Source: Wenzhouxiangella marina (lineage in GTDB: Bacteria; Pseudomonadota; Gammaproteobacteria; Xanthomonadales; Wenzhouxiangellaceae). From it: a stretch of 64,000 nt of DNA. The stretch covers positions 2,598,501 through 2,662,500 of the forward strand of contig NZ_CP012154.1 of assembly GCF_001187785.1 (NCBI RefSeq). The letters are read 5' to 3'. Both the position numbers and the translations under genes were made by a program. Below the pieces are notes generated by a model that saw only the letters and a program-made list of their open reading frames with translations, was not told the DNA's origin and did not search any database. Positions 32,460-47,619 of the stretch are shown here, piece by piece (the first letter of the stretch is position 1; the number at the start of each line of letters is the position of its first letter).

Positions 32460-33248
32460 TCAGTCCCAATCACCCCAAATCGTCCCCCTCAAATATTCCA
32501 CCGCACGCCCGGTTAAACGAACGCGATCGCCGGCCAGCTCGCAAAGCAACGTGCCCCCACGTTTCGACGCCTGACGAGCAATAAGCTCGGTCTTCCCCAA
32601 CCGCTCCGCCCAATACGGCACCAACTTGCAGTGCGCCGACCCCGTCACCGGATCCTCATCCACCTGCAACTTCGGAAAAAAGCACCGACTGACAAAATCA
32701 AACGCCTTCCCCGGCGCCGTCGCCAGCACCCCCCGCCGATCCAACCGCTTCAACACCGCAAAATCCGGCTCCAACCCCCGCACCTGCTCCTCACTCTCGA
32801 ACACCGCCACATAATCCGGCGCCCCCAACAAGGCCACCGGCTCCGCCCCCAGGCCCTCGACGATCTCCGGCAACATCTCCATCGGCTCAGGCTTGATCGC
32901 CGGAAAGTCCAGCGTCAGCCCCTGCTCGCCTTTCTCGACCGTCAACTCACCACTGCGACTCAGAAACCGAATGACCGGCTCCGAATACCCCAGATGCTCG
33001 AACAACACGTGCGCACTCGCCAGGGTCGCATGACCGCAGAGGTCGACCTCGGCCTCGGGCGTGAACCAGCGCAGCTGGTAGGCTTCCCCTTCCCTGACGA
33101 AGAAGGCCGTTTCCGACAGATTGTTCTCCATCGCAATCGCCTGCATCACCCCATCCGGCAGCCAGGCCTCCAGCGGCACCACGGCGGCGGGGTTGCCTTC
33201 GAAGAGGCGATCGGCAAAGGCGTCGACCTGAAAGAGCTTGAGTTCCAT
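32460..33248 (-). CDS. PhzF family isomerase
   Basis: This 262-residue protein is of the PhzF/diaminopimelate-epimerase fold. MELKLFQVDAFADRLFEGNPAAV is the family start. Glu46 in NLSETAFF is the expected general acid/base. DLCGHATLASAHVLF and DEDPVTGSAHCKLVPYW are the two hallmark motifs of the duplicated domains. Family members isomerise or epimerise small acids, and only a few act in phenazine synthesis. No phz genes are nearby, so the substrate is unknown. Confidence 0.9.
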   Translation of the reverse strand: MELKLFQVDAFADRLFEGNPAAVVPLEAWLPDGVMQAIAMENNLSETAFFVREGEAYQLRWFTPEAEVDLCGHATLASAHVLFEHLGYSEPVIRFLSRSGELTVEKGEQGLTLDFPAIKPEPMEMLPEIVEGLGAEPVALLGAPDYVAVFESEEQVRGLEPDFAVLKRLDRRGVLATAPGKAFDFVSRCFFPKLQVDEDPVTGSAHCKLVPYWAERLGKTELIARQASKRGGTLLCELAGDRVRLTGRAVEYLRGTIWGDWD

Positions 33249-33303
33249 ATCCTGCTAACCTGTCGTCGTTTTCAGCAACGATAGCAGAGGCGGCAGGGAC
33301 ACG

Positions 33304-33750
33304 ATGGCCAGAATCTGGGTAGACGCAGACGCCTGTCCGGGGCCGATCAAGGAGATCCTGTTCCGCGCCGCCGAACGGACGAACACGCGCCTGACTCTGG
33401 TGGCGAATCACCCCTTGGCCACACGCCCCTCGCCGCTGATCGACGCGATCCAGGTGTCATCGGGCTTCGACGTGGCCGACTCGGAAATCGTCAAGCGCCT
33501 GTCCCCGGGCGATCTGGTCATCACCGCCGACATCCCCCTGTCCTCGGAGGCCATCGACAAGGGCGCCCTGGCCCTGAACCCCAGAGGGGAGCTCTACACC
33601 AAGGCCACCATCAAGGCGCGCCTGAGCATGCGCAACTTCATGGACTCCCTGCGCTCCGCGGGCGTCCAGACCGGTGGGCCATCGGCCTTGAGCAAAGCAG
33701 ACCGAAAACGCTTTGCTGATCAACTGGATCGGTGGCTGGCGAAAAGATAG
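33304..33750 (+). CDS. YaiI/YqxD family protein (UPF0178, DUF188)
   Basis: This 148-residue protein begins [23 protein letters not shown], the exact family signature with D-A-D-A-C-P, followed by [34 protein letters not shown] and [12 protein letters not shown]188 proteins have a PIN-like nuclease fold with conserved acidic residues; the biological role is not known. It is divergent from phzF with 55 bp between starts, and purine-rich repeats begin right after its stop. Confidence 0.9.
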
Positions 33751-33972
33751 AACCTTTAGATCGCAAAGCAGCGAAGCAGCGAAGCAGGAAAGAAAAGCAA
33801 AACACTTAAAGCAAAATCTTTTGGTCGCGAAGCAGCAAAGCAGCAAAGAAAAAGACCAGGGAAGAAAGCTGTTTGGAATAAATGGCGTTTCTACTCCGCA
33901 CGCGCTTCGCGCAAATTTTTTTATTTCTTGCCTTTCTTTGCTGCTTCGCTGCTTTGCGATTCAAAGATTTTG
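33751..33972. mobile_element. Copy 1 of AAGCAGCGAAG inverted-repeat element, no gene
   Basis: The left arm (33751-33860) has units TCGCAAAGCAGCGAAGCAGC and TCGCGAAGCAGCAAAGCAGC; the right arm (33923-33972) has the reverse, CTTTGCTGCTTCGCTGCTTT. The core includes AAGCTGTTTGGAATAAATGG and CACGCGCTTCG. It lies between the convergent yaiI and argE genes. Its core resembles that of copy 2. The whole could fold as a long hairpin. Confidence 0.7.
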
Positions 33973-33974
33973 AA

Positions 33975-35147
33975 TCACGACCGACTGAGGTAAGCAATCA
34001 CGTCGTCCACCATCCGCTCGCAACGTTCCAGTTCGGCCGGGTCGATGAATTCGTTCGGCTGGTGGGCCTGGTCGATGGAGCCGGGGCCGCAGACGACGCT
34101 GCTGATGCCGGCGCGCTGGAAGCTGCCGGCTTCCGTGGCGAAGGACACGGCGCCCGAGCCGCCGTCGCGGACGCCATTCAGGCTCCGCACCCAGGTCTCG
34201 GCGCGGGCCTCCGGGTCCGGCATCAGGGGTGGCACGCGGGCGATGGGCGTGGTCTCGACGCTCGCCTCGGGGGCGAACTCACGCAGGTCCGGCAGCACTT
34301 CGGTCTCGATGAAGTCCTGCATGGCGGTGATGATTTCCTCCGGGTCCTCGTCGGGCAGGCCACGGTATTCCCACAGGAACTCGCAGTGGGCGGGCAGGAT
34401 GTTGACCGCCGTGCCGCCGTCGATGCGGCCGACCTGCACCGTGGTCCAGGGCGGTTCGCAGCCCGAGTCCACGGCGGCGGCGCGCTTGCCTTCGCCGATC
34501 TGGCGCAGCTGTTCGATGATGCGCGCGGCGGCGAAGATCGCGCCGGCGCCGCGGTGCGGCTGGCTGGAATGCGCGGCCTGCCCCGTCACCACCGTGCGGA
34601 AAACGTTGATCGACTTGTGGGCCCGGACGATCTGCATCGTCGTCGGCTCGCCGATGATCGCGTAGGCCGGCTTTTCAAAGTGCGCCAGGGCATCGTCGAC
34701 CATGCGGTCGATGCCCAGGCAGCCGACCTCCTCGTCGTAGGACAGGGCCAGGCAGAGGGGCTTGTTCAGGCTCGCCGGGTCGAGATCGGCCAGGCGCGAG
34801 AGGAAGACGGCGGAGAAACCCTTCATGTCCGAGCTGCCGCGACCGTAGAGGAGGCCCTCCTTCTCGGTCAACTGAAAAGGATCCGTGTGCCAGTCCTGGC
34901 CATCGACGGGCACCACGTCCGTGTGGCCGGACAGGACCACGCCGCCCGGCGCGTCCGGACCGATGACGGCGTAAAGGTTGGCCTTGGTCCCGTCCTCGTT
35001 CACCGTGCGCCGACAGCGGGCGCCAAAGGTCGACAGGTAGTCCTCGACGAAGTCGATCAGGGGCAGATTGCTGTCGCGAGACACGGTCGGGAAGGCGACC
35101 AGCTTGGCGAGCATTTCGATACTGGACAGGGCGGCGCGATCGTTCAT
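33975..35147 (-). CDS. argE: Acetylornithine deacetylase (ArgE)-type M20 peptidase
   Basis: This 390-residue M20 metallopeptidase has the zinc sites GHTDVVPVDG, GRGSSDMKG, YDEEVGCLG and IGEPT, and a late LPAHCEFLWEYRGLP. FPTVSRDSNLPLIDFVEDYL at the start is ArgE-like. ArgE removes the acetyl group of N-acetylornithine in arginine synthesis. No other arg genes lie nearby. Co-direction with a solute symporter 37 bp away could instead mean a salvage role for N-acyl amino acids. Confidence 0.86.
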   Translation of the reverse strand: MNDRAALSSIEMLAKLVAFPTVSRDSNLPLIDFVEDYLSTFGARCRRTVNEDGTKANLYAVIGPDAPGGVVLSGHTDVVPVDGQDWHTDPFQLTEKEGLLYGRGSSDMKGFSAVFLSRLADLDPASLNKPLCLALSYDEEVGCLGIDRMVDDALAHFEKPAYAIIGEPTTMQIVRAHKSINVFRTVVTGQAAHSSQPHRGAGAIFAAARIIEQLRQIGEGKRAAAVDSGCEPPWTTVQVGRIDGGTAVNILPAHCEFLWEYRGLPDEDPEEIITAMQDFIETEVLPDLREFAPEASVETTPIARVPPLMPDPEARAETWVRSLNGVRDGGSGAVSFATEAGSFQRAGISSVVCGPGSIDQAHQPNEFIDPAELERCERMVDDVIAYLSRS

Positions 35148-35184
35148 GTCGGAAAGGGTCTGTCGTTGAGTTCCTTCTAGATTA

Positions 35185-36657
35185 TCAGTCGGCCGTGGCC
35201 GGTGAGAGATAGGCGCGCACCTGCTCGGCAGGCTGGGCCGGGGTCAGGAGCGACACGATCACCAGCACCGGAACGTGGACCATCAGGCCCAGCAGGCCTT
35301 CGTGAATTCCGAAGGGCCGCCAGTCGGGCTGGAAGAAGAACAGCAGGGCCGTGGCCGCCCCGGCCAGGAGCCCGGCGATGGCCCCGGGCGTGGTCGCGCG
35401 CGACCAGAACAGGGCCGCGAGCACCGGCGGGGCCAGCTGGGCGATGATGCCGTAGGAAGTCAGCAGGAGCACGACCAGGGAGATGCCTTCGGCGACGGCA
35501 AAGTAATAGGCCACGCCACCGGCCGCCAGCACCAGCAAGCGGATCAGCTGCCGCTGCCGGGCTTCGTCCAAATCGACGAAGGGCCGGACGCCATCTTCGA
35601 CCGCCACGGAGGCCGTGGCATGCAACAGCGCATCGCCGGTGGACATGGAGGCGGACAGGGCGCCGGCGCAGAACAGGCCGACGACGATCAGGGGCAGATC
35701 GACGTTCAGGATCAGGTACGGCAGGATGAAGTCGGGCCTCGGCAGCTCGTCGACGAAGAGCACGCCGGCAAAGCCGATCAGGAACACGGGCAGCAGGAAC
35801 AGCTGGAAGGTCGGGAACCAGACCACGGTCCGCTGGATGATGCGCCCGTCGCGGGCCGTGAAGGCCTTCATGAACAGATGCGGCCACATGGTCAGGCCGA
35901 TGGCGCTGATCAGGATCGCGCTGGTGTAGCCGCCCCAGGTCCAGGGCTCGCCGCCGGCGGTCAGGCCCGGCGTGGCCAGCAGCTCGGGACGCTCGGCCAG
36001 GATCGCCTCGAACATCGGCCCGATGCCACCGTAGAGGGCGTAGGGAAGGTAGAGCCCCAGGGCCCAGGCGATGACGATCATGAACACGCCCTGGAGCGTA
36101 TTGGTCCAGCCGACGGCGGCGACGCCGCTGACGAGCACGTAGATCAGCACGATGCCATAGGCGATCGCCGCCCCGGCCCAGAGCGGCACATGGCCTTCCG
36201 TGACCGCCTCGACGACGATCCCGGCGCCGCGCATCTGCAGGGTGATGTAGGGAATCAGAGCCGCGACGGAAATCAGCACGATCAGCACGGACAGGAAGCG
36301 GGACGGAAAGCGCCCGGTCAGGAACTGGCCCTGGGTCACGTGTCCGAGCTGACGACCGATACGCGCGACCTTGGGCCCGACGACGTACCAGGGCACCATG
36401 CCGAGCACCCCGTAGGACAGGATGTAGAAGGCCGCCGCGCCGCGCGAATAGGCCCAGCCGGGCCCACCGAGAAAGGCGAAGGCGGAAAACACCGTCGCGC
36501 CGGTGACGAAGTACATGACCAGGAAGCCGAAGTTGCGGTCGCCCGCCACGAAACCGGTCACCGTCGCCGAGGTGCCGCGCCCGGCGCGCAGGCCCACGAA
36601 CAGAGTCAGGCCCAGGTAGGCCGCGATCATCGCCGTGATGAGGACCCAGTCGGCCAT
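35185..36657 (-). CDS. Sodium:solute symporter family transporter
   Basis: This 490-residue protein has about 13 TM segments. VTGFVAGDRNFGFLVMYFVTGATVFSAFAFLGGPGWAYSRG is the SSS opening (quoted in parts: VTGFVAGDRN, FSAFAFLGGPGW), where helix 1 carries sodium-site residues. GVAAVGWTNTLQGVFMIV and FCAGALSASMSTGDALLH are later family signatures. It is a probable sodium/organic-acid or amino-acid uptake carrier. It overlaps its small partner gene by one base (TGATG) and precedes argE. Confidence 0.9.
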   Translation of the reverse strand: MADWVLITAMIAAYLGLTLFVGLRAGRGTSATVTGFVAGDRNFGFLVMYFVTGATVFSAFAFLGGPGWAYSRGAAAFYILSYGVLGMVPWYVVGPKVARIGRQLGHVTQGQFLTGRFPSRFLSVLIVLISVAALIPYITLQMRGAGIVVEAVTEGHVPLWAGAAIAYGIVLIYVLVSGVAAVGWTNTLQGVFMIVIAWALGLYLPYALYGGIGPMFEAILAERPELLATPGLTAGGEPWTWGGYTSAILISAIGLTMWPHLFMKAFTARDGRIIQRTVVWFPTFQLFLLPVFLIGFAGVLFVDELPRPDFILPYLILNVDLPLIVVGLFCAGALSASMSTGDALLHATASVAVEDGVRPFVDLDEARQRQLIRLLVLAAGGVAYYFAVAEGISLVVLLLTSYGIIAQLAPPVLAALFWSRATTPGAIAGLLAGAATALLFFFQPDWRPFGIHEGLLGLMVHVPVLVIVSLLTPAQPAEQVRAYLSPATAD

Positions 36658-36869
36658 CAGGACTCGCCTCCGCCCTGCTCTGCCCGATCGAGCACCAGGA
36701 GCATGATGAAGCCGAGGATGATCCAGCCGACGGGCCAGGCCAGGGACAGGGGCAGGCCGAAGACGAAGGGCTCGGCGGCGCTGAAGAAGCTCGCCACGGG
36801 CCAGGTCAGGGCCAGCAGATTGAGCACGAAAAAGACCGCCACCACGCGGCGGATCACGGGACGACGCAT
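36657..36869 (-). CDS. DUF3311 small membrane protein
   Basis: This 70-residue protein begins MRRPVIRRVVAVFFVLNLLA, 8 bases after GAGG; a GTG at 36908 would add 13 unrelated residues. It has two TM segments with FVFGLPLSLAWPVGWIILGF, the DUF3311 signature. Small DUF3311 proteins precede SSS transporters and are thought to be accessory subunits. It is coupled to the symporter gene by a one-base overlap and is divergent from thrE by 47 bp. Confidence 0.82.
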   Translation of the reverse strand: MRRPVIRRVVAVFFVLNLLALTWPVASFFSAAEPFVFGLPLSLAWPVGWIILGFIMLLVLDRAEQGGGES

Positions 36870-36916
36870 GGCATTTCCCTCGGTGCGCGAGGGGCCATTA
36901 TGCGACACTTCCGCCC

Positions 36917-38164
36917 ATGGACGAGCCGACCCTTCTCGACGACGAGCCGCAACCCTACGAGGCCAGCCGCCTCGGCACCCTGGTACTCAACCTGGGTCGG
37001 GCCCTGCTGCACGTCGGCTCGCCGGCGCACCGCCTGGAGGCCGCCATGCAGGTGATGGCCGACCGCCTGGGCCTGCGCGCCGAGTTCTTCTCGACCCCGA
37101 CCTCCCTGATCGTGTCCCTGGGCGATGAATCGCGCCAGCAGACCTTTCTGGCCCGCTCCGACCCCGGCTCGCCCAATCTCTCGAAGCTGGCGGATCTGAC
37201 CGAAGTGATGGAGGACCTGGCCGACAAGCGCATCGACCCGATCGAGGCCGACCGTCGCGTGCGCGAGATCGACGCCGCGCCCGCCCGCTTCGGCTTCTGG
37301 TGGCAGCTGTTCGGCTTCATCGCCATCGCCGGTGGCGTCACACCGCTGATCGGCGGCGGCTGGCGCGAGACGGCGCTGGCCACGGTGCTCGGCACGATCA
37401 CCGGCCTGGCCGTGCTGCTGCTGGGCTCACATATGGAGCGGGCACGGCTGATCGCGCCCCTGGCCGCCACCCTGACCACTTTCCTCGGCACGCTCTGGTG
37501 CGGCTACGACGCCCAGACGGCACTCATGCCCGCCCTGATCGCCAGCATCATCGCCCTGCTTCCGGGGATGGACCTGACCACGGCCTGTCGAGAACTGTCC
37601 ACGGGCCATCTCGTGTCCGGCTCGTCACGCCTGGCCTCGGCGGTGATGGTCTTTGCCCTGATCACCTTCGGCCTGGCGGTCGGCGGTCTGGCCGGTCAGG
37701 CCATCGTCGGCCCCGTCGGCCTGGTCAATCCCCAGGCCGCACCCGAATGGCTGACGCCCATCGGCCTGCTGATCGCCTGCGTCGGCCTGGTGATCCTGTT
37801 CCAGGGCCATCGCCGCGACTGGTTCTGGATGCTGCTGGCCAGCCTGATCGCCTGGGCCAGCTCCTTCATCGGCGTCTGGATCAATGCCCCGGTGATCGGC
37901 GCCTTCGCCGGCGCGCTGTTCGTCGGGCTGGCGGGCAATGTCTTCGTGCGCTTCACGGGCCGGCCCGGCTCGATCATGCACATGCCCGGGCTGATCCTGC
38001 TGGTGCCGGGCTCCATCGGCCTTCGCTCGCTGGCGACGCTCCTCGATCATGATGTGATTTCGGGCATCGAGACCGCCCTGCTGGCGGGTATGATTGCGGT
38101 GGCGCTGACCACCGGCATGATCGTCTCGAGCGTGCTGCTGCCGCCGCGCAAGAACGCGCTGTAA
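36917..38164 (+). CDS. Threonine/serine exporter ThrE family
   Basis: This 415-residue protein has an N-terminal soluble ThrE domain (LGRALLHVGSPAHRLEAAMQVM and FFSTPTSLIVSLGD) followed by ten TM segments covering both membrane halves (ThrE and ThrE_2). PGSIMHMPGLILLVPGSIGL near the end is the conserved C-terminal part. Members export threonine and serine by proton exchange and limit their build-up. The full-length single-chain form, as in Corynebacterium ThrE, is present here. Confidence 0.88.
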   Translation: MDEPTLLDDEPQPYEASRLGTLVLNLGRALLHVGSPAHRLEAAMQVMADRLGLRAEFFSTPTSLIVSLGDESRQQTFLARSDPGSPNLSKLADLTEVMEDLADKRIDPIEADRRVREIDAAPARFGFWWQLFGFIAIAGGVTPLIGGGWRETALATVLGTITGLAVLLLGSHMERARLIAPLAATLTTFLGTLWCGYDAQTALMPALIASIIALLPGMDLTTACRELSTGHLVSGSSRLASAVMVFALITFGLAVGGLAGQAIVGPVGLVNPQAAPEWLTPIGLLIACVGLVILFQGHRRDWFWMLLASLIAWASSFIGVWINAPVIGAFAGALFVGLAGNVFVRFTGRPGSIMHMPGLILLVPGSIGLRSLATLLDHDVISGIETALLAGMIAVALTTGMIVSSVLLPPRKNAL

Positions 38165-38198
38165 CTCGACAAGAATTCAATATCGGGGAGATTCCAAG

Positions 38199-38471
38199 AT
38201 GGCCATCGACGTCATCAAGACCCACGGCAAGACCCTGGAAGAGGCGCAGAAGGTCGCCGACGACCTCGCGCGGGACCTGGCCGACAAGTTCGCCGTCAAC
38301 TACGGCTGGGACGGCGACACGATCGTGTTCGAGCGGATGGGCGTCCATGGCGAGATCGACGTCAATTCGGAGGTCGTGCACGTGCGGGCCCAGCTGGGCT
38401 TCCTGCTGTCCTACCTGGAGCCGGCGGTGGAAAGGGAAGTCAATCGCTATCTCGACGAGCACTTCGCCTGA
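38199..38471 (+). CDS. Polyhydroxyalkanoic acid system family protein
   Basis: This 90-residue protein has the PHA_gran_rgn (TIGR02610) pattern: helix KTLEEAQKVADDLARDLADKF, strand YGWDGDTIVFERMGVHGEIDV and helix LSYLEPAVEREVNRYLDEHF. Relatives sit near PHA synthesis genes; their exact role in granules is not proven, and none of those genes is visible here. It follows thrE by 34 bp and is followed by an AAGCAGC element. Confidence 0.82.
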   Translation: MAIDVIKTHGKTLEEAQKVADDLARDLADKFAVNYGWDGDTIVFERMGVHGEIDVNSEVVHVRAQLGFLLSYLEPAVEREVNRYLDEHFA

Positions 38472-38491
38472 CTACAGGATCAAAGACAAAA

Positions 38492-38660
38492 GCAGAATCC
38501 TTGAATCGCGAAGCAGCGAAGCAGCAAAGAATAAAGACCAAGAAAATAGCTTTTCGAAATCAAAGGCTTTTGTCCCACGCGCGCTTCGAATCTGCGGGTC
38601 AAATCTTCTGATCTTTTACTTTTCTTTGCTGCTTCGCTGCTTTGCGATCTAAAGGTTTTT
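38492..38660. mobile_element. Copy 2 of AAGCAGCGAAG inverted-repeat element, no gene
   Basis: The left arm (38497-38545, TTGAATCGCGAAGCAGCGAA) and right arm (38617-38660, CTTTGCTGCTTCGCTGCTTT) are inverted. Between them AGCTTTTCGAAATCAAAGGC and CACGCGCGCTTCGAA parallel the core of copy 1. It is intergenic between two converging genes. Confidence 0.7.
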
Positions 38661-38676
38661 CTTTCAATCTCGAGGT

Positions 38677-39000
38677 TTAGTCGGCTTCGCAGCGGTAGAT
38701 GCCATAGCGTCCCTTGCCCGGGCCCATTCGGCCCTCGTCCACCAGGCGATTGCCGCCAAGTTCATACGCCGAGTTGCGCGCCAGGGTCAGCAGCTCCTCC
38801 TCGATCGTGCTCGGGCTGCGCTGGACGCCTGCGACCCGGTCGCGGACCGAGACCGTGGTCTCACCCAGGCGCTCGCAGTGGTGCACCTGATGGCGCTCCA
38901 CGAGCCGAATCCGGTACGAGCCGGGTTCAGGCTGAACCCAGACGCAGCCGGCCAGCGCGGCAATCGTCAGCAACACGGTAAGCAGTCGAATCGGGGTCAT
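38677..39000 (-). CDS. DUF4156-like lipoprotein
   Basis: This 107-residue protein is read from the ATG at 39000 before a lipoprotein signal (VLLTIAALAGC, lipobox L-A-G-C, Cys19); the longer frame adds a hydrophilic run. CERLGETTVSVRDRVAGVQR and VEEELLTLARNSAYELGGN-like residues (IEEELLTLARNSAYELGGN), ending YGIYRC, are the DUF4156 pattern. The role of the family is unknown; RcsF and YjeI-type small lipoproteins share the fold. It is probably anchored to the outer membrane. Confidence 0.78.
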   Translation of the reverse strand: MTPIRLLTVLLTIAALAGCVWVQPEPGSYRIRLVERHQVHHCERLGETTVSVRDRVAGVQRSPSTIEEELLTLARNSAYELGGNRLVDEGRMGPGKGRYGIYRCEAD

Positions 39001-39149
39001 GGGGGCATGCGCCTCGGCAGGAGTCCGATTGCTTCGACGCTGCCGCGCGAGCGCAGTTCCGTCCCGTCCTGTGCGCATCTGCACGAAAGCGAGGCCAACC
39101 TGCGATAATGGGCGGTCTTGTTCAACCGTATCGACTACGAGGACCCCTC

Positions 39150-40319
39150 ATGAGCGACGCCATCGTCATCGTTTCCGCCCGCCGCACGGCCATCGGCTCC
39201 TTCCAGGGCCAGTTTGCCCCGGTCAAGTCGCCGGCGCTGGGCTCGGCCGCCATCCGCGCCGCCCTGGCCGATTCGGGCGTCGCCCCGGAGGCGGTCTCCG
39301 AAGTGATCATGGGCTGCGTGCTGCCCGCCGGCACGGGCCAGGCCCCGGCGCGCCAGGCCGCACTCGGCGCCGAGCTGCCGACCTCGGCCGGCTGCACCAC
39401 CATCAACAAGGTCTGCGGCTCGGGCATGAAGGCCGTGATGCAGGGCCATGACGCGATCCTGGCCGGCTCGGCCGACGTCGTCGTGGCCGGCGGCATGGAA
39501 TCGATGACCAACGCTCCCTACCTGATGGACCGCGGCCTGCGCATGGGCCACGTCCAGGCCCTGGACCACATGTTCTTCGACGGTCTGCAGAACCCCTACG
39601 ACGGCCAGATGATGGGCCAGTTCGGCGAACAGTGCGTGGCCAGGTACGGTTTCACCCGCGAGGAGCAGGACGCCTTTTCGAAGGCCTCCGTCGAGCGCGC
39701 CATGGACGCCTTGAATTCCGGCGCCTTCGAAGCCGAGATCGCGCCGGTGACCGTGCGTACCCGCAAGGGCGAGGTGGAAATCAGGACCGACGAAGAGCCG
39801 CCGCGCTGCAACGTCGAGAAGATGCCCGGCCTGCGCCCGGCCTTTGCCAAGGACGGCACGATCACGGCCGCCAGCTCGTCGAAGATCTCCGACGGTGCGG
39901 CCGCCATGGTGCTGATGCGGGAAAGCGCGGCCATCGAGCAGGGTCTGAAGCCCCTGGCACGCATCGTCGCCCACGCCACCCACAGCCAGGAGCCGGAGTG
40001 GTTCACCACGGCCCCGGTCGGTGCCATGCAGAAGGTGCTGGACAAGGCCGGCTGGAGTGCCGATCAGGTCGATCTGTTCGAGATCAACGAAGCCTTCGCC
40101 ACGGTCACCATGGCCGCGATGAAGGAGCTGGACCTGCCGCACGAGAAGGTCAATGTGCACGGCGGCGCCTGCGCCCTGGGTCACCCGATCGGCGCCAGCG
40201 GTGCGCGCATCCTCGTCACCCTGATCCATGCCCTGAAGGCGCGCGGCGGCGGCCGCGGCGTAGCCAGCCTCTGCATCGGCGGCGGGGAAGCCACGGCGAT
40301 CGCCATCGAGTCGGTCTGA
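39150..40319 (+). CDS. Acetyl-CoA C-acetyltransferase (thiolase)
   Basis: This 389-residue protein is read from the ATG at 39150, 7 bases after GAGG. Catalytic residues are Cys89 in NKVCGSGMKA, His345 in LGHPIGASG and Cys375 in SLCIGGGEA. It condenses or cleaves acetoacetyl-CoA (biosynthetic type II) or 3-ketoacyl-CoA; the sequence does not settle which. It begins a unit with HMG-CoA lyase, whose start is 7 bp after its stop, so the likely pathway is leucine/ketone-body catabolism. Confidence 0.92.
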   Translation: MSDAIVIVSARRTAIGSFQGQFAPVKSPALGSAAIRAALADSGVAPEAVSEVIMGCVLPAGTGQAPARQAALGAELPTSAGCTTINKVCGSGMKAVMQGHDAILAGSADVVVAGGMESMTNAPYLMDRGLRMGHVQALDHMFFDGLQNPYDGQMMGQFGEQCVARYGFTREEQDAFSKASVERAMDALNSGAFEAEIAPVTVRTRKGEVEIRTDEEPPRCNVEKMPGLRPAFAKDGTITAASSSKISDGAAAMVLMRESAAIEQGLKPLARIVAHATHSQEPEWFTTAPVGAMQKVLDKAGWSADQVDLFEINEAFATVTMAAMKELDLPHEKVNVHGGACALGHPIGASGARILVTLIHALKARGGGRGVASLCIGGGEATAIAIESV

Positions 40320-40326
40320 GCACGCC

Positions 40327-41220
40327 ATGACGGACCGGGTCAGCATCGTCGAGGTCGGGCCGCGCGACGGCCTGCAGAACGAGCCCTACACCATTCCGAC
40401 CGAGGTCAAGGTCGAGCTCATCGACCGTCTGTCGGCGACGGGCCTGCCGGTGATCGAAGCCACCAGCTTCGTCAGCGCGCCGGCCATCCCGCAGCTGGCT
40501 GACGCCGAGGACGTGTATTCGCGCATCGAACGACGGGCCGGGGTTCGCTACCCGGTCCTGGTGCCGAATCTGAAGGGCTACGAGCGCGCCCGCGCCGTCG
40601 GTGCCGAGGAGATCGCGGTGTTCACCGCGGCCTCCGAGGCCTTCAACCAGAAGAACATCAACTGCTCGATCGCCGAGTCCATGGAACGATTCAAGCCCGT
40701 GGTCGAACGCGCCCGGGCCGACGGTGTCCGTGTTCGCGGTTATGTCTCCACGGTCCTGGGTTGCCCCTACCAGGGCGAGGTGCCGGTGTCGGAAGTGGTG
40801 CGCGTGGCCGAGGCCCTCGATCAGGCCGGCTGCGCCGAGATCTCCCTCGGCGACACGATCGGCGTCGGTACGCCGGCCAAGGCGCGGGCGGTGATCGAAA
40901 CGGTGGCGAAATCGATCCCCGTCGAGCGTCTGGCCGTGCATTTCCACGACACCTACGGTCAGGCCCTGGCCAATATCCACGCCTGCATCGAAGCCGGCAT
41001 ACGCACCGTCGACTCGTCAGTCGCCGGCCTCGGCGGCTGCCCCTACGCGCGCGGCGCGACGGGCAACGTGGCCACGGAAGACGTGGTCTACATGCTGCAG
41101 GGCTTGGGCCTGGACTGCGGCGTGGACCTGAAGGCCCTGGCCCAGGTCGGCGACTGGATCGCCGGCGAACTCGGCCGACCGAGATCTCGCACTGGCCAGG
41201 CCATTTTGAAAAGAAACTAG
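40327..41220 (+). CDS. mvaB: Hydroxymethylglutaryl-CoA lyase
   Basis: This 297-residue protein of the HMGL-like TIM-barrel family has the substrate/metal site VEVGPRDGLQNEP. The lyase signature SVAGLGGCPYARGATGN carries the catalytic loop Cys238. VSTVLGCPYQGEV and HFHDTYGQAL supply metal-binding residues. It splits HMG-CoA to acetoacetate and acetyl-CoA, the last step of leucine breakdown. It follows thiolase closely, and acetoacetyl-CoA synthetase lies 4.5 kb further on. Confidence 0.93.
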   Translation: MTDRVSIVEVGPRDGLQNEPYTIPTEVKVELIDRLSATGLPVIEATSFVSAPAIPQLADAEDVYSRIERRAGVRYPVLVPNLKGYERARAVGAEEIAVFTAASEAFNQKNINCSIAESMERFKPVVERARADGVRVRGYVSTVLGCPYQGEVPVSEVVRVAEALDQAGCAEISLGDTIGVGTPAKARAVIETVAKSIPVERLAVHFHDTYGQALANIHACIEAGIRTVDSSVAGLGGCPYARGATGNVATEDVVYMLQGLGLDCGVDLKALAQVGDWIAGELGRPRSRTGQAILKRN

Positions 41221-41221
41221 A

Positions 41222-41369
41222 GGCGAAAATCTTTAAATCGCAAAGCAGCTAAGCAGCGAAGAAAGGACACGAAAAGAAAAATCTTTGAATCGCGAAGCAG
41301 CGAAGCAGCAAAGAAAAGACACAAGCTTTGGAACGCGAAGACGCTAAGACGCGAAGCAGCTAAGAAAGG
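41222..41369. repeat. Left AAGCAGC repeat arm of the GxxExxY element (copy 3)
   Basis: Three related units (TTTAAATCGCAAAGCAGCTA, TTTGAATCGCGAAGCAGCGA, GAACGCGAAGACGCTAAGAC) run directly up to the GxxExxY start codon. The matching inverted arm follows the gene at 41763-41812. Confidence 0.75.
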
Positions 41370-41756
41370 ATGGAAAGAGAAGCGCTTGAGGAAATTGCCC
41401 GCGCTACCGTTGATGCAGCCATAAAGGTGCATACTGCTTTGGGTCCCGGGCTGCTTGAATCAGCCTATCAGGCGTGTTTGAAGATCGAGATGGAAAGACG
41501 CGGACATCGCGTTTCGACGGAAGTCATGCTTCCGATCCATTACGACGGGCACCAGATAGAGAAGGCGTTTCGAATCGACATGCTCATCGACGATGCGTTG
41601 ATTGTCGAGAACAAGGTGAGCCAGAACCCGAACACCGTTCACGAAGCTCAGCTTTTCACCTATCTGAAATTATCGGATCTGAGACTGGGTTTACTGATCA
41701 ATTGGAACCACAGGCTGCTGAAGCACGGCATCAAACGTGTCGTACATCGACTCTGA
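41370..41756 (+). CDS. GxxExxY family protein
   Basis: This 128-residue protein has TVDAAIKVHTALGPGLLESAYQACL, in which G-L-L-E-S-A-Y is the family motif (G-x-x-E-x-x-Y). LPIHYDGHQIEKAFRIDMLI, with DDALIVENKV following, resembles the core of PD-(D/E)xK nuclease-like folds. RLGLLINW closes the fold. The biochemical role is unknown. The start ATG comes straight out of the purine-rich repeat; no separate promoter is obvious. It is the only gene inside any of the four repeat elements and could be its mover or cargo. Confidence 0.88.
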   Translation: MEREALEEIARATVDAAIKVHTALGPGLLESAYQACLKIEMERRGHRVSTEVMLPIHYDGHQIEKAFRIDMLIDDALIVENKVSQNPNTVHEAQLFTYLKLSDLRLGLLINWNHRLLKHGIKRVVHRL

Positions 41757-41762
41757 ACTTGT

Positions 41763-41812
41763 TGCCCTTTTCTTTGCTGCTTTGCTGCTTTGCGATCAAA
41801 AAGGTTTTGAAT
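41763..41812. repeat. Right inverted AAGCAGC repeat arm of the GxxExxY element
   Basis: CTTTTCTTTGCTGCTTTGCT and TTTGCGATCAAAAAGGTTTT are the inverse of the left arm at 41222-41369. They end just before the ribosome-binding site of the downstream SDR gene (AAGGAG at about 41815). Confidence 0.75.
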
Positions 41813-41831
41813 CTAAGGAGAAATTAACTCG

Positions 41832-42602
41832 ATGAACCTGACCAACATCAAGGCCGTGATTACTGGCGGCGTTTCCGGTCTCGGTTTTGCCGTGGCCCAG
41901 AAGTTCGTGGCAGAGGGCGGCAAGGTGGCCCTGCTGGACGTCAACGCCGACAAGGCGCAGGCTGCCGTCGATGAACTGGGGGCTGACAAGGCCCGCTTCT
42001 TCCAGGTCGACGTGACCAGCGAAAGCGATGTGATCGACGTCGTCGGCCAGGCCCACGACTGGATGGGTGGCCTGAACGTCGCCATGAACTGCGCCGGCAT
42101 TCTCGGTGCGGGCCGCGTGCTGGGGCGCGAAGCGCCGATGCCCCTGGACACCTTCTCTAAGACCGTCATGGTCAACCTGGTCGGCAGCTTCAACGTCGCC
42201 AAGGCGGCCGCGGATCGGATGCAGCACAACGAGCCGGGCGAGGACAACGAGCGCGGGGTGATCATCAATACCGCCTCCGTCGCCGCCTTCGAAGGCCAGA
42301 TCGGCCAGGCCGCCTACTCGGCCTCGAAGGGCGGCGTGGTCGGCATGACCCTGCCGATGGCGCGCGAATTCACCCGCATCGGCGTGCGCGTGATGACCAT
42401 CGCTCCTGGGGTGTTCCACACGCCGATGGTCGACATCATGCCCGAGCAGGTCCAGCAGGCCCTGGGCGAGTCGATTCCCTTCCCCAAACGCCTGGGGCAC
42501 GGGTCGGAGTTCGCGGACCTGGCCGCGCACATCGTCGAAAACCGCTACTTCAACGGCACCACGATCCGCCTCGATGGCGCCGTCCGCCTGGAGCCGAAAT
42601 GA
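41832..42602 (+). CDS. SDR 3-hydroxyacyl-CoA dehydrogenase type II-like
   Basis: This 256-residue classical short-chain dehydrogenase has the cofactor motif GGVSGLG near residues 12-18, NCAG as the structural motif and Y162-x-x-x-K166 (YSASKGG) as catalytic pair. GVFHTPMVDIMPEQVQQAL and the end DGAVRLEPK match the HSD17B10/HADH2 branch, which oxidises 3-hydroxy-2-methylbutyryl- and related acyl-CoAs with NAD in isoleucine and fatty-acid breakdown. Its stop overlaps the next start (ATGA). Confidence 0.9.
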   Translation: MNLTNIKAVITGGVSGLGFAVAQKFVAEGGKVALLDVNADKAQAAVDELGADKARFFQVDVTSESDVIDVVGQAHDWMGGLNVAMNCAGILGAGRVLGREAPMPLDTFSKTVMVNLVGSFNVAKAAADRMQHNEPGEDNERGVIINTASVAAFEGQIGQAAYSASKGGVVGMTLPMAREFTRIGVRVMTIAPGVFHTPMVDIMPEQVQQALGESIPFPKRLGHGSEFADLAAHIVENRYFNGTTIRLDGAVRLEPK

Positions 42603-43009
42603 TGGAGACCTTCGCCGCCATCGAGGACTACCTCCGCCAGTACTACGAGGTCGTGCACGACGAGCCCTTCATGCTCGGCCTGGAAGTGCCGGTCGGTGAT
42701 TCCGGACGTCGCCAGAGCGTGTTCGTGGCCGAACTCAAGAGCCAGGAAGGCAAGCGCTTCCTGCGCTTCGAGACCACCGTCGCCCCGCTGGCCGACCACG
42801 ATCCGGTCAAGTGCCTGCGCGTCAACCTGATGCTGCGCACCGGCTATCTCGCCGTCGGCGACCTGGAAGGCCTGCCCTTCCTCAAGCTCTGCGAGAACCT
42901 GCCCTACAGCGCCGTTGACGGCCATATGTTGGACTATGTCATCGAACAGGTCGCCGAACTCGGCGACAAGATCGAAGTCACCCTGAACAAGGGTGGCGAC
43001 TGGTTCTGA
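42599..43009 (+). CDS. Small soluble protein of unknown function (YbjN-like form)
   Basis: This 136-residue protein starts at an ATG overlapping the SDR stop; a second ATG follows directly. FAAIEDYLRQYYEVVHDEPF, RLNLMLRTGYLAVGDLEGLPFL-like residues (VNLMLRTGYLAVGDLEG) and LDYVIEQVAELGDKIEV suggest an alpha/beta fold like YbjN or type III chaperones, but the match is by pattern only. It lies between the SDR and mechanosensitive channel genes and is translationally coupled to the first. Confidence 0.65.
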   Translation: MMETFAAIEDYLRQYYEVVHDEPFMLGLEVPVGDSGRRQSVFVAELKSQEGKRFLRFETTVAPLADHDPVKCLRVNLMLRTGYLAVGDLEGLPFLKLCENLPYSAVDGHMLDYVIEQVAELGDKIEVTLNKGGDWF

Positions 43010-43031
43010 ACTCATTCGAACGGAGACCCTG

Positions 43032-43862
43032 ATGGACGCACTCAAGACCTGGTTCGCCAATCTCGACACCGCTGACATCCTGGCCCTGGCCTGGCAGGTC
43101 ATCGGCGCCCTGCTGATCTTCATCATCGGGCGCTGGGTGGCCAAGGCCCTGGTCAAGGTCCTGCGCCGCGCGATGGCGAAGCGCCAGATCGATCAGCTGC
43201 TGGTCAACTTCCTGGCCAATATCCTGTACGTCTTCCTGCTCCTGTCGGTGGTCCTGATCTCGATCGGATACCTCGGCATCGCGGTGACGCCGCTGATCGC
43301 CGTGCTCGGTGGCGCGGCCCTGGCCGTCGGCCTGGCCCTGCAGAGTTCGCTCAGCAACTTCGCTTCGGGCCTGATGCTGGTCGGCTTCCGACCCTTCACC
43401 ACCGGCCACTTCGTCGAGGCCGGCGGGGTCTCAGGGACGGTCAAGAACGTCGGCATCTTCCAGACCGAGCTGACCACGCCGGACAACCGCCACATCATCG
43501 TCCCGAACAGCGAGATCACCAGCGCTCCGATCACCAACTACTCGGCCTTCGACACGCGCCGCATCGATATGATCATCGGCGTGTCCTACGACGACGATCT
43601 GAAGAAGGCGCGCGAAGTGATCGAGAGGGTGGTGACGGCGCACGAGAAGGTGCTGAAGGACCCGGCGCCGGTGTTCCTGTTGATGGACCTGGCCGATTCC
43701 AGCGTCAACTTCGCCGTCCGTCCCTGGGTGGCCACGGCCGATTACTGGGTGGTGCGCAGCGAGCTGCTGGAATCCCTCAAGGTGGAACTGGAAGCCGCCG
43801 GCTGCTCCATCCCCTACCCGCAGCGAGATGTGCACCTCTTCCAGTCCGGCAGCGCCGACTGA
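43032..43862 (+). CDS. mscS: Small-conductance mechanosensitive channel (MscS)
   Basis: This 276-residue protein is read from the ATG at 43032, 7 bases after GGAG. Three TM helices are followed by the MscS beta-domain. The pore helix GGAALAVGLALQSSLSNFASG has the Gly/Ala-rich TM3 pattern. FTTGHFVEAGGVSGTVKNVGIFQTEL and PNSEITSAPITNYS lie in the cytoplasmic beta domain. It opens under membrane tension to release solutes. The length and order match E. coli MscS. A strong terminator follows. Confidence 0.92.
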   Translation: MDALKTWFANLDTADILALAWQVIGALLIFIIGRWVAKALVKVLRRAMAKRQIDQLLVNFLANILYVFLLLSVVLISIGYLGIAVTPLIAVLGGAALAVGLALQSSLSNFASGLMLVGFRPFTTGHFVEAGGVSGTVKNVGIFQTELTTPDNRHIIVPNSEITSAPITNYSAFDTRRIDMIIGVSYDDDLKKAREVIERVVTAHEKVLKDPAPVFLLMDLADSSVNFAVRPWVATADYWVVRSELLESLKVELEAAGCSIPYPQRDVHLFQSGSAD

Positions 43863-43907
43863 GGCGAACTCGGATCAGGCCGCTGTGGCCTGGAAACTCT
43901 GAATCAG

Positions 43908-43936
43908 GGCCGGTCTCCCATGACCGGCCTTTTTTT
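43908..43936 (+). terminator. Terminator after mscS
   Basis: GGCCGGTC (43908-43915) and GACCGGCC (43922-43929) form an 8-bp GC-rich stem around a 6-base loop, followed by a 7-T run (43930-43936), ideal for intrinsic termination. The next gene ends in the opposite direction 10 bp later. Confidence 0.92.
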
Positions 43937-43946
43937 GTGCCGGCCC

Positions 43947-44756
43947 TCAGTCGTCGGACTTGTAGGACTTGATGATGTAGCCGCCGGACTTCTCGTCGTG
44001 CTGCAGTTCCAGCAAGCCGGCCTTCTGCGCTTCCTGGAGCAGATGGTTGAAGCTCTTGAAGCCATGGTAGGACTCGCTGAAGCCAGGCTTGCGGCGCTTC
44101 AGTGCCTGCTTGACCATGGACCCCCAGACCTTCTCTTCCGCATCCCGGTCGGAGAACAGATCCTCGGTCGTCTCCAGCACCAGATCGAAGGCCTCCTGCT
44201 GCTTCTCGTCGACCGCGGGCTTGGCCGCCGCCTTCTTCGAGGCCTTCTTCTTCGCGGCCTTCTTCTTGGCCGGCTTCTTCGGCTTGCGGATCAGGTCGTC
44301 GTAGAAGATGAACTCATCGCAGTTGGACATCAGCAGGTCCGAGGTCGAACTCTTGACCCCGACGCCGATCACCGTCTTGTTGTTCTCCCGAAGCTTCGAG
44401 ACCAGCGGCGAGAAATCGGAATCGCCCGAGATCACCACGAAGGTGTCCACATGGCCTTTCGTATAGCAGAGGTCGAGCGCATCGACCACCATGCGGATGT
44501 CCGCCGAATTCTTGCCCGACATGCGAACGTGGGGGATATCGATCAGCTCGAAGGCCGCTTCATGCATGGCCGCCTTGAACTCGCGATACCGGCCCCAGTC
44601 GCAGTAGGCCTTGCGCACGACGATATTGCCCTTCAGGAGCAGGCGCTCGAGCACCTTCTGGATGTCGAAGGCGTCGTAGCGGGCGTCGCGAACGCCGAGG
44701 GCGACGTTCTCGAAGTCGCAGAACAGGGCCAGATTGCGGGTGGGGATGTTGCTCAT
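43947..44756 (-). CDS. NYN-domain nuclease-like protein with C-terminal LOTUS/OST-HTH-like region
   Basis: This 269-residue protein is read from the ATG at 44756 (MSNIPTRNLALFCDFENVAL). The NYN (PIN-like) domain at about residues 7-150 has acidic clusters D-F-E-N, a middle NSADIRMVVDALDL and VVISGDSDFSPLV, as in LabA-type proteins. A Lys/Ala-rich linker (KKPAKKKAAKKKASKKAAAK) leads to a helical C-terminal part like OST-HTH (QALKRRKPGFSESYHGFKSF). The likely role is RNA binding or cleavage in the cytoplasm. Confidence 0.85.
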   Translation of the reverse strand: MSNIPTRNLALFCDFENVALGVRDARYDAFDIQKVLERLLLKGNIVVRKAYCDWGRYREFKAAMHEAAFELIDIPHVRMSGKNSADIRMVVDALDLCYTKGHVDTFVVISGDSDFSPLVSKLRENNKTVIGVGVKSSTSDLLMSNCDEFIFYDDLIRKPKKPAKKKAAKKKASKKAAAKPAVDEKQQEAFDLVLETTEDLFSDRDAEEKVWGSMVKQALKRRKPGFSESYHGFKSFNHLLQEAQKAGLLELQHDEKSGGYIIKSYKSDD

Positions 44757-44868
44757 GAAGCATCCGTGAAATGGGAATGTCGCTAGGGTACACCAGCCGA
44801 GGCTCACCGATCAGGGCAGACGGGGATTGCCTCGGCGCATCAAGCTCCGGGACTGACCGAAGCGGCAA

Positions 44869-45381
44869 TCAGCTCAAGGTCGAGAGAAAGTCGTTCAGCC
44901 AGCCCTGAATCGAGATCAACGCGTCCTCGAGACGGTGGTCCGCGTCGATCAGATAGAGGTCGGCGCGGGTCTGCTCGGCAAACTTCACACTCCCCTGCCA
45001 GGGGCAGATATCGTCTCGCCAGCCATGAACCACGGTGATCCGATCGCAGCGCGGCGCATAGGACTCACGCACCACGCCACCGGGCATCCGATCTTCCATG
45101 AACAGGGCCGGCGCCATCAGGAACAGGCCGGCCACCGGCACGACCTCGGCCGCCGCCAGGGACACCAGACCGCCCAGGGACGAACCGACCAGGACCGGCG
45201 CCTCGTCCAACTCTGAAATGCGGGCTTTCAAACGCTCTACCCGCCCGAAGGGATCATCCTGCAGATCCGTGTAGTCGATCGCTTCGACAGAACATCCGAT
45301 CCGTTCGGCCACCGGCGCCAGCACCTGGATCTTGCGGCTCTGCGGACTGGACAGATGGCCGTGGGAGAAAATCACGCGCAT
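44869..45381 (-). CDS. Small alpha/beta hydrolase (YqiA-like)
   Basis: This 170-residue protein is read from the ATG at 45381 (MRVIFSHGHLSSPQSRKI). The nucleophile motif is G-S-S-L-G-G (VLVGSSLGGLVSLAAA). GWRDDICPW and DADHRLED hold the expected Asp and His of the triad. The small size and the opening SHGHLSSPQS resemble YqiA/UPF0227-type esterases. The substrate is unknown. Its start is only a few bases after a repeat element in the region upstream (45388). Confidence 0.8.
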   Translation of the reverse strand: MRVIFSHGHLSSPQSRKIQVLAPVAERIGCSVEAIDYTDLQDDPFGRVERLKARISELDEAPVLVGSSLGGLVSLAAAEVVPVAGLFLMAPALFMEDRMPGGVVRESYAPRCDRITVVHGWRDDICPWQGSVKFAEQTRADLYLIDADHRLEDALISIQGWLNDFLSTLS

Positions 45382-45387
45382 TTTGAA

Positions 45388-45662
45388 AACCTTTTGGTCG
45401 CAAAGCAACGAAGACCAAGAATCTTTTGGTCGCAAAGCAGCGAAGCAGCAAAGAAAAGCAATAATCTTTTAAACGCCAAGGCGCGAAGACGCTAAGGCAA
45501 AAAAGCGGATTAACAGCTCATTGGTTTTCGCTTTCCCTGGCGTCTTAACGTTACCAGAAGTTTTATTCCTTTTATTTTTTCCTTTCCTTGGCTGCTTAGC
45601 TGCTTCGCGTTCTAAAGATTTTCCGTCTTTGCTGCTTCGCTGCTTTGCGTTTCAAAGATTCC
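45388..45662. mobile_element. Copy 4 of AAGCAGCGAAG inverted-repeat element, no gene
   Basis: The left arm (45388-45500) has units TTGGTCGCAAAGCAACGAAG, TTGGTCGCAAAGCAGCGAAG and AACGCCAAGGCGCGAAGACG. The right arms (45526-45662) have CTGGCGTCTTAACG and CTTGGCTGCTTAGCTGCTTC, with CTTTGCTGCTTCGCTGCTTT. It occupies the whole space between the alpha/beta hydrolase and aacS genes. Confidence 0.7.
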
Positions 45663-45672
45663 GCCCTTGACC

Positions 45673-47619
<1,947 letters not shown>

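Follow-up and report, generated by a model that had tools for sequence, protein, structure and literature searches.

Palindromic elements with tandem-unit arms and their association with GxxExxY genes in Wenzhouxiangella marina and other genomes

Arm-bearing places and GxxExxY genes in W. marina

The DNA analysed here, referred to as the window, is a stretch of 64,000 nucleotides of the Wenzhouxiangella marina genome (NZ_CP012154.1, positions 2,598,501 to 2,662,500). At four places it contains inverted arrays of the period-8 unit AAGCAGCG, together with AAGACGCN variants, and at one of them the arrays enclose a gene of the GxxExxY family. All four places belong to a widespread class of palindromic elements whose arms come in many sequences, varying with the GxxExxY lineage. 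In its general form an element consists of two inverted arms, each of 2-4 tandem purine-rich units of 8-10 bp (AACC-RCRRAG-N1-3-CRCRRAG...), with a GxxExxY gene or a short, variable core between them. The features in the window are as follows.

33751..33972, no strand: gene-less copy 1; period-8 arms (AAGCAGCG) around a core in common with copy 2, between convergent DUF188 and M20 peptidase genes
38492..38660, no strand: gene-less copy 2; core of the copy 1 family, flanked by the ThrE exporter region and a DUF4156 gene
41222..41369, + strand: left arm block of copy 3; CGAAGCAGC units mixed with CGAAGACGC units, immediately preceding the GxxExxY start
41370..41756, + strand: GxxExxY gene of copy 3; 128 aa, PD-(D/E)XK nuclease superfamily, RecB/Cas4-like predicted fold, conserved D70, E80xK82 and Q94xxxY98
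41765..41812, - strand: right arm of copy 3; inverse of the left arm
45388..45662, no strand: gene-less copy 4; composite, arms doubled on each side, adjoining the 3' end of an acyl-CoA synthetase-like gene

At each of the four places the arms point toward each other. With at most one mismatch, GAAGCAGCGAAG had 18 matches in the window, all of them inside these places, compared with a mean of 0.80 and a maximum of 5 in 100 dinucleotide shuffles. In the whole genome (3.675 Mb, one contig) 33 matches to AAGNNGCNAAGNNGCNAAG were counted versus 1 for the backward pattern, with clusters near 235.5, 1059.8, 1338-1340, 2291, 2632-2644 (the window) and 2984 kb. Backward patterns of the arm families described below were similarly rare (0 matches for family 1, 2 for CGCAAAG, 2 for CACRGAG in the phylum sample and 1 for CACCGAA). 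Shuffles and backward patterns together rule out chance or low complexity as the source of the arms. An initial annotation of the window had described units in one direction with their reverse complement at the other end, a related core in copies 1 and 2, and a GxxExxY gene within copy 3. Matches, shuffles and facing arms agree with the first description; alignment of the four copies agrees with the second, extending through the core in copies 1 and 2 and running mainly in the arms of copy 4, whose core is unrelated. The gene was confirmed by profile matches of the open reading frame (ORF) at 41370-41756 to TIGR04256 (GxxExxY; 133.1 bits, cut-off 35) and PF13366 (PDDEXK_3; 128.4 bits, cut-off 22). 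Its start codon, which had been thought to come from the arm, lies a few bases past the final unit of the arm (GCTAAGAAAGG-ATG), so that what the arm provides is the purine-rich leader of the gene.

The W. marina genome contains three GxxExxY genes, each with inverted arms of a different sequence. Two of them, with their arms, had been absent from the initial annotation, and their nuo and suf neighbours were confirmed by NCBIfam:

710 kb: GxxExxY gene between nuoM and nuoN, arms CACCACAGAGGCACGGAGTACACAGAG
2916 kb: GxxExxY gene between sufB and sufC, arms AACCGCAGATTGCGCAGATT
Window (copy 3): GxxExxY gene between HMGL-like and SDR genes

As three genes are accompanied by three arm sequences, the arm sequence varies by gene lineage, while the lineages share a layout in which short tandem units form inverted arms close to the gene. 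Gene-less copies appear to cluster within about 25 kb of a gene-bearing copy (G000, 2632-2644 kb; G003:C45, 6.8-30 kb), as if by local spread.

Distribution of arms, gene-less copies and GxxExxY genes

The layout was assessed at GxxExxY loci of other genomes, and inverted arms were called at an alignment score of at least 15 (stricter threshold, 20). Among the relatives, 28 of 61 matched the GxxExxY family, 26 of them above its cut-off. Inverted arms with a score of at least 15 were present at 23 of 26 full loci, a set without control ORFs; the others were L041, L043 and L044, with the arms of L041 and L043 running in the same direction. This reading left out L036 and L054-L057 (contig edge, broken or partial gene) as well as matches given no locus; those at the SDR site were read separately, and G003:C14, G015:C248, G025:C21 and G034:C8 are in neither set. 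The public loci, the best 80 of 584 relatives, represent many phyla of bacteria and also some archaea. L067, L093 and L104 were dropped owing to short flanks, while L091, L096 and L118 (internal stop) were counted for arms but excluded from the protein alignment. Of these best-matching loci, 60 of 77 reached a score of 15 and 37 of 77 a score of 20, compared with 3 and 2 of the 344 further ORFs that these loci contain. At L083, one of the 60, the arms do not resemble arm units. When flanks of different loci were mispaired, 1010 of 5852 pairs reached 15, far fewer than among true pairs; they do so because the arms have the common consensus AACC-RCRRAG-N-CRCRRAG. Two of the three archaeal loci have arms (L088 and L098, not L069). 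In an independent phylum sample, inverted arms stood at 22 of 29 loci versus 0 of 9 control ORFs. In a separate comparison of 58 arm sets, 50 had at least two C[AG]CN[AG]AG units. Arm words recurred away from the gene in 13 of 60 public loci, backward words in 3 of 60, and words of other loci in 17 of 593 tests. GxxExxY genes of bacteria and archaea therefore usually lie between inverted arms of tandem 8-10 bp purine-rich units. At one locus of G195 (L334) the GxxExxY match lies within a 449-aa open frame, which may be a fusion or merely an open frame.

Gene-less copies were surveyed in 30 genomes of the genus, W. marina included; counts include the gene's own arms, and gene carriers were assigned to arm families by the arms read beside the gene. 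Family 1 comprises the carA/carB-type gene and the arm word ACCGCAGATGAACGC (carA and carB confirmed by NCBIfam for L032 and by eye elsewhere). Where the cognate gene was read, in five genomes, the arm copies number 18, 28, 33, 19 and 39. A further 25 copies were found in G005, which has gene fragments only, and 19 in G001, a 65%-complete genome. The other 23 genomes have 3, 2, 1 and 1 copies in four cases and none in 19 (Mann-Whitney p = 8e-5 for family 1), and the backward word was absent from all 30 genomes. On a one-gene (SDR) tree, from which G001 is absent, the genomes rich in family 1 fall on three separate branches: G015/G018/G005/G002; G019, whose nearest genomes G009 and G008 have 1 and 0 copies; and G025, whose sister G027 has none. 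For family 2 (CGCAAAG), 4-43 copies were counted in 10 gene carriers and 0-10 in the 20 other genomes (p = 1e-5). It is richest in a set of genomes differing from that of family 1, and G025 has both genes and both arm families. In family 3 (CACCGAA) the two gene carriers rank first, with 87 and 69 copies. The p values are descriptive because related genomes are not independent, and 'no gene found' is a soft statement as several of the genomes are incomplete. In a phylum sample of 200 genomes, searched with one arm pattern, CACRGAG arms were present in 18 of 32 gene carriers versus 9 of 168 others (p = 6e-11; arm and gene searches taken as the same sample, and G061, below the profile cut-off, counted as gene-less).

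Among the loci read there is usually one gene per arm family and genome (G028 has two with CGCAAAG-type arms), and the carA/carB-type gene occupied the same site in all five genomes read. At the SDR site of G016 and G028 the GxxExxY genes are broken by stops or frameshifts, and arm copies persist in the genome. With exceptions, it is mainly the genomes with the cognate gene that are rich in gene-less copies in this genus. The initial annotation had named arms lacking GxxExxY genes in all arm-bearing genomes as evidence against a link; this was not the case for families 1-3, and some genomes do have arms with no cognate gene found.

A family-1 copy consists of an arm of about 30 bp, a core of 3-163 bp (23 copies) and the inverse arm. 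By eye the cores are unrelated, except in the orthologous pair L204/L208, and bear no similarity to the gene, so the core of family-1 copies was rejected as a gene remnant. The paired positions of arm unit 2 were asymmetric in 23 of 36 copies (gene-bearing ones included), symmetric in nine and of other bases in four. Complementarity is not kept there, and maintenance of the family-1 arms as perfect hairpins is not supported. Predicted RNA folding gave z = -5.8 for copy 1 (33820-33965), z = -6.1 for copy 2 (38498-38646) and z = -0.9 for copy 4 (45425-45570, a stretch ending before the right arms). A known RNA family was dismissed, as Rfam had no match in 33000-46500. Most copies with both neighbours called sit between tandem or convergent genes. 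Judged by position only, elements between nuoM and nuoN, sufB and sufC, and carA and carB show that they are not confined to transcription ends; that the units act as terminators only is unlikely given these copies within operons.

Site occupancy and the GxxExxY protein

Presence and absence of elements were observed at two orthologous sites, each read in 23 genomes. Between nuoM and nuoN the gene is present with both arms in G000 and G008, and with the right arm in G014, where a contig edge lies at the left. Gene-less palindromes occupy the site in G002, G001 and G019, a single-arm remnant in G018 and a short palindrome in G011; in six of the genomes the nuoM end was not located by script. 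G026 and G029 have palindromes of other short units. Such palindromes (TTTCAGG, GGTTTCC), with no known partner gene, were also seen at the same kinds of sites, as at L266:19552-19876. At the HMGL/SDR site ten genomes have the gene with arms (frames broken in G016 and G028), three have remnants, five are empty, and five have other upstream sequence or are not comparable. Empty sites in relatives, a check suggested at the outset, were seen as the five empty HMGL/SDR sites and as nuoM-nuoN spacers of 5-6 bp in five genomes.

At the HMGL/SDR site two protein clades pair with two arm families; G006 and G023 differ in both, and the arm found there sits immediately within what remains of the other family. 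In another spacer the arms are of the CGCAAAG type in G003 and of the CACCGAA family in G017. At the flank of the acyl-CoA synthetase-like gene occupied by copy 4 in W. marina, CGCAAAG outer arms enclose another family in G003, and a third family is found in G025. Three of nine CACCGAA copies read seem nested in a larger CGCNAAG-type palindrome (scores 15.5, 16.5 and 34.5). With mispaired flanks as control the 95% point was 11.4 and the 99% point 17.2, and only one of the three exceeds the latter. One of 24 family-1 copies is nested in a CACAGAG palindrome. From the site comparisons and the nesting it follows that the element at a given intergenic position can change, with occasional nesting. 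Such turnover at fixed positions is well supported, and the nested copies suggest that existing palindromes are preferred or tolerated targets.

In an alignment of 100 GxxExxY sequences D70, K82 and Y98 were invariant, and E80 and Q94 were conserved in at least 90%. Such a D/ExK/QxxxY pattern is expected for PD-(D/E)XK enzymes of the RecB/Cas4 type. The AlphaFold2 model of the window protein (predicted local distance difference test score, 95.4; predicted template modelling (TM) score, 0.89) had as top Foldseek matches in the PDB SSO0001, a Cas4 (TM 0.57, E = 1.6e-4), followed by LHK-Exo, an archaeal splicing endonuclease and lambda exonuclease. The nuclease-like fold initially attributed to the family is, in this prediction, nearest to Cas4 and lambda-type exonucleases, at modest scores. 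No PDB sequence match was found for the window protein; of three proteins compared with PADLOC, one matched Cas4 and Cas4b weakly (E about 0.008), and PHROGs matched none of three. GxxExxY proteins are, by this model and these residues, predicted single-domain nucleases of the RecB/Cas4-type PD-(D/E)XK group. The ratio of non-synonymous to synonymous substitution rates (dN/dS) was 0.026-0.091 in six pairs, in three of which dS exceeded 1.6; dS was saturated in the remaining three of nine pairs. Low dN/dS and the kept nuclease residues indicate that the gene is maintained and not drifting, that is, it is under purifying selection.

One query protein had relatives in none of 50,697 phage records and in eight of 72,556 plasmid records, all eight predicted to be non-mobilizable, and a scan of IMG/VR gave one relative. 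On this near absence phage or plasmid cargo was rejected. A GxxExxY protein is annotated in a Chrysochromulina parva virus (PMC12085832).

A REPIN/RAYT-like interpretation and its alternatives

Repetitive extragenic palindromic (REP) sequences form a known system of comparable layout, treated in PMC3116915, PMC3733652 and PMC8266576. REP doublets forming hairpins (REPINs) are dispersed pairs of inverted REPs around a less conserved spacer, and the cognate protein is encoded by single distinctive copies (PMC3116915). Genes of REP-associated tyrosine transposases (RAYTs) are flanked by repeats or long terminal inverted repeats, with many families and with copies mostly between tandem or convergent genes (PMC3733652). 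Family-1 copies resemble REPINs in their inverted conserved arms, variable spacer, dispersal between genes and cognate protein. Unlike in REPIN-RAYT systems, the gene between the arms encodes a PDDEXK_3 protein and not an HUH (Y1_Tnp) enzyme (the genomes were not searched for RAYT genes), and the arms are tandem 8-10 bp units, with GTAG and CGTC tags at one and one of 44 family-1 arms (within 12 nt). Furthermore, GxxExxY elements were found here in archaea and many bacterial phyla. No account of these arms was found in the titles and abstract beginnings of open-access literature, nor a match to six 15-base arm words; one may exist elsewhere. No described function of GxxExxY was found either, its open-access mentions being in passing, and PDDEXK_3 was not mentioned there.

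The interpretation that we favour, and consider probable, is that the two form a REPIN/RAYT-like pair in which a RecB/Cas4-type PD-(D/E)XK nuclease, and not an HUH transposase, spreads inverted-arm repeats in trans. GxxExxY would most likely recognise its cognate arms and act on them in trans, presumably by cutting, and copying could then proceed via break repair or replication-fork processing at the palindrome. Gene-less two-arm copies would spread between genes, and the nuclease, as mover of the arms, would also drive the turnover at sites. With usually one gene per arm family and a site that is often kept, the gene copy appears to be a master that mostly stays in place, much like RAYT in REPIN systems. 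One gene per arm family as a rule, many gene-less copies and near absence from plasmids and phages fit such a chromosomal trans-acting master better than a roaming transposon. The initial annotation had seen one small mobile element with a gene-bearing and three gene-less copies. The arms are indeed common to both copy types, their link with GxxExxY extends well beyond the window and site occupancy varies between species; however, the single element has become a large class with many arm sequences, whose gene copy appears mostly stationary.

Several observations weigh against the favoured interpretation. CACCGAA arms number 37 in G028, 22 in G017 and 19 in G012, where the cognate gene was not found. 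CACRGAG arms occur in nine of the 168 gene-less genomes of the phylum sample and are missing from 14 of the 32 gene carriers; restricted to family f36, the association is weak (16 of 26 versus 8 of 21, p = 0.15). A score of 15 was not reached at 17 of 77 public loci, which, as the best 80 of 584, are those nearest to the query protein, and across phyla proteins and arms co-vary modestly (rho 0.16; 20 of 2000 permutations). At nuoM-nuoN and between G003 and G017/G025 the flanks were too diverged for a target-site duplication or a base-exact empty site to be read. The Foldseek matches are modest, with a best TM of 0.57 to the AlphaFold2 model, E of 1.6e-4 and high root-mean-square deviation. Finally, a PD-(D/E)XK nuclease alone is not known to have strand-transfer activity.

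A gene bounded on either side by terminal inverted arms, one genome with gene copies at three places, two of them inside conserved operons, empty sites in relatives and different families at one site would also be expected of a conventional inverted-repeat transposon. Here the whole gene-bearing unit would move by cut-and-paste or copy-paste with GxxExxY as transposase, and gene-less copies would be deletion derivatives, that is, miniature inverted-repeat transposable elements (MITEs). Such elements of DDE insertion sequences are likewise small, intergenic and non-autonomous, with terminal inverted repeats; they differ in that the gene between the arms described here has a predicted nuclease-only fold instead of a DDE transposase (DDE partners were not searched for in the genomes), that the arms are arrays of units, and that no target-site duplication was seen in the diverged flanks. 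The different arm sequence of each W. marina gene, moreover, implies that no gene copy has multiplied in that genome, the gene-less cores do not resemble gene remnants by eye, and the carA/carB-type site is kept in five of five genomes read. Transposons are often carried on plasmids, and the scarcity of GxxExxY in plasmid, phage and IMG/VR records is at odds with this. We regard a conventional transposon as unlikely. A similarly low probability is assigned to GxxExxY being a passenger, or a housekeeping or defence nuclease, that settles in palindromic repeats spread by another enzyme or by recombination. Many arms without a cognate gene found in G001, G012, G017 and G028 of the genus and in G212 of the phylum sample, other tandem-unit palindromes at the same spots without a known gene, and the weak Cas4 similarity are in line with it. 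The protein indeed has the predicted core fold and the conserved D, ExK and QxxxY residues of the Cas4/lambda exonuclease/RecB family, yet is small (about 128 aa), stands alone between arms and has no sequence match in the PDB. A passenger is difficult to reconcile with the family-specific match of gene and arms in three arm families of one genus, with family 1 on three branches, or with arms flanking the gene in most loci across phyla. Nor was a transposase family found among eight window proteins scanned (whole genomes were not searched for transposases).

A role at the RNA level, with the units as terminators, attenuators or mRNA-stabilising stems and GxxExxY acting on an RNA hairpin, is most improbable. 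Strong folding of copies 1 and 2, the archaeal splicing endonuclease among the top Foldseek matches, and the position of most copies between tandem or convergent genes, as reported for REPs (PMC3733652), would suit such a role. Copies also lie inside nuo, suf and car operons, however, where a terminator would be polar, and the paired unit-2 positions of family 1 are not kept complementary (23 of 32 asymmetric, the four copies with other bases uncounted). Furthermore, Rfam had no match, families turn over at sites, and most top fold matches are DNA nucleases.

If the REPIN/RAYT-like interpretation is correct, the system would be a parallel to REPIN-RAYT that is independent of it and relies on another enzyme. 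Arms recognisable by eye give GxxExxY, whose genes occur across a wide range of genomes, a first testable function, and a class of intergenic repeats (CACAGAGACACAGAG, CGCAGATGAACGC, CGCAAAGACGCAAAG and others) may find its explanation. More tentatively, and with the balance of probability somewhat against it, GxxExxY could represent a type of mobile DNA in bacteria and archaea that has so far gone unrecognised. Its mobiliser, about 115-130 aa long and solely a nuclease, would copy palindromes of tandem 8-10 bp units in trans, with no use of HUH, DDE, tyrosine or serine recombinase chemistry. It would probably cut the palindrome, and host repair would copy the palindrome into others or into intergenic sites. 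A nuclease alone spreading repeats would, if true, be a new chemistry of DNA mobility, among the smallest known.

Two minor observations were made at neighbouring or unrelated sequences. The UPF0227-like esterase gene beside copy 4 (window 44869-45435) is reversed relative to its acyl-CoA synthetase neighbour in G003, G025 and G011, and in G003 palindromes flank it. At L266:2112-2318 a GC-rich dispersed repeat of about 100 bp was seen, with many matches in G010 and G017.

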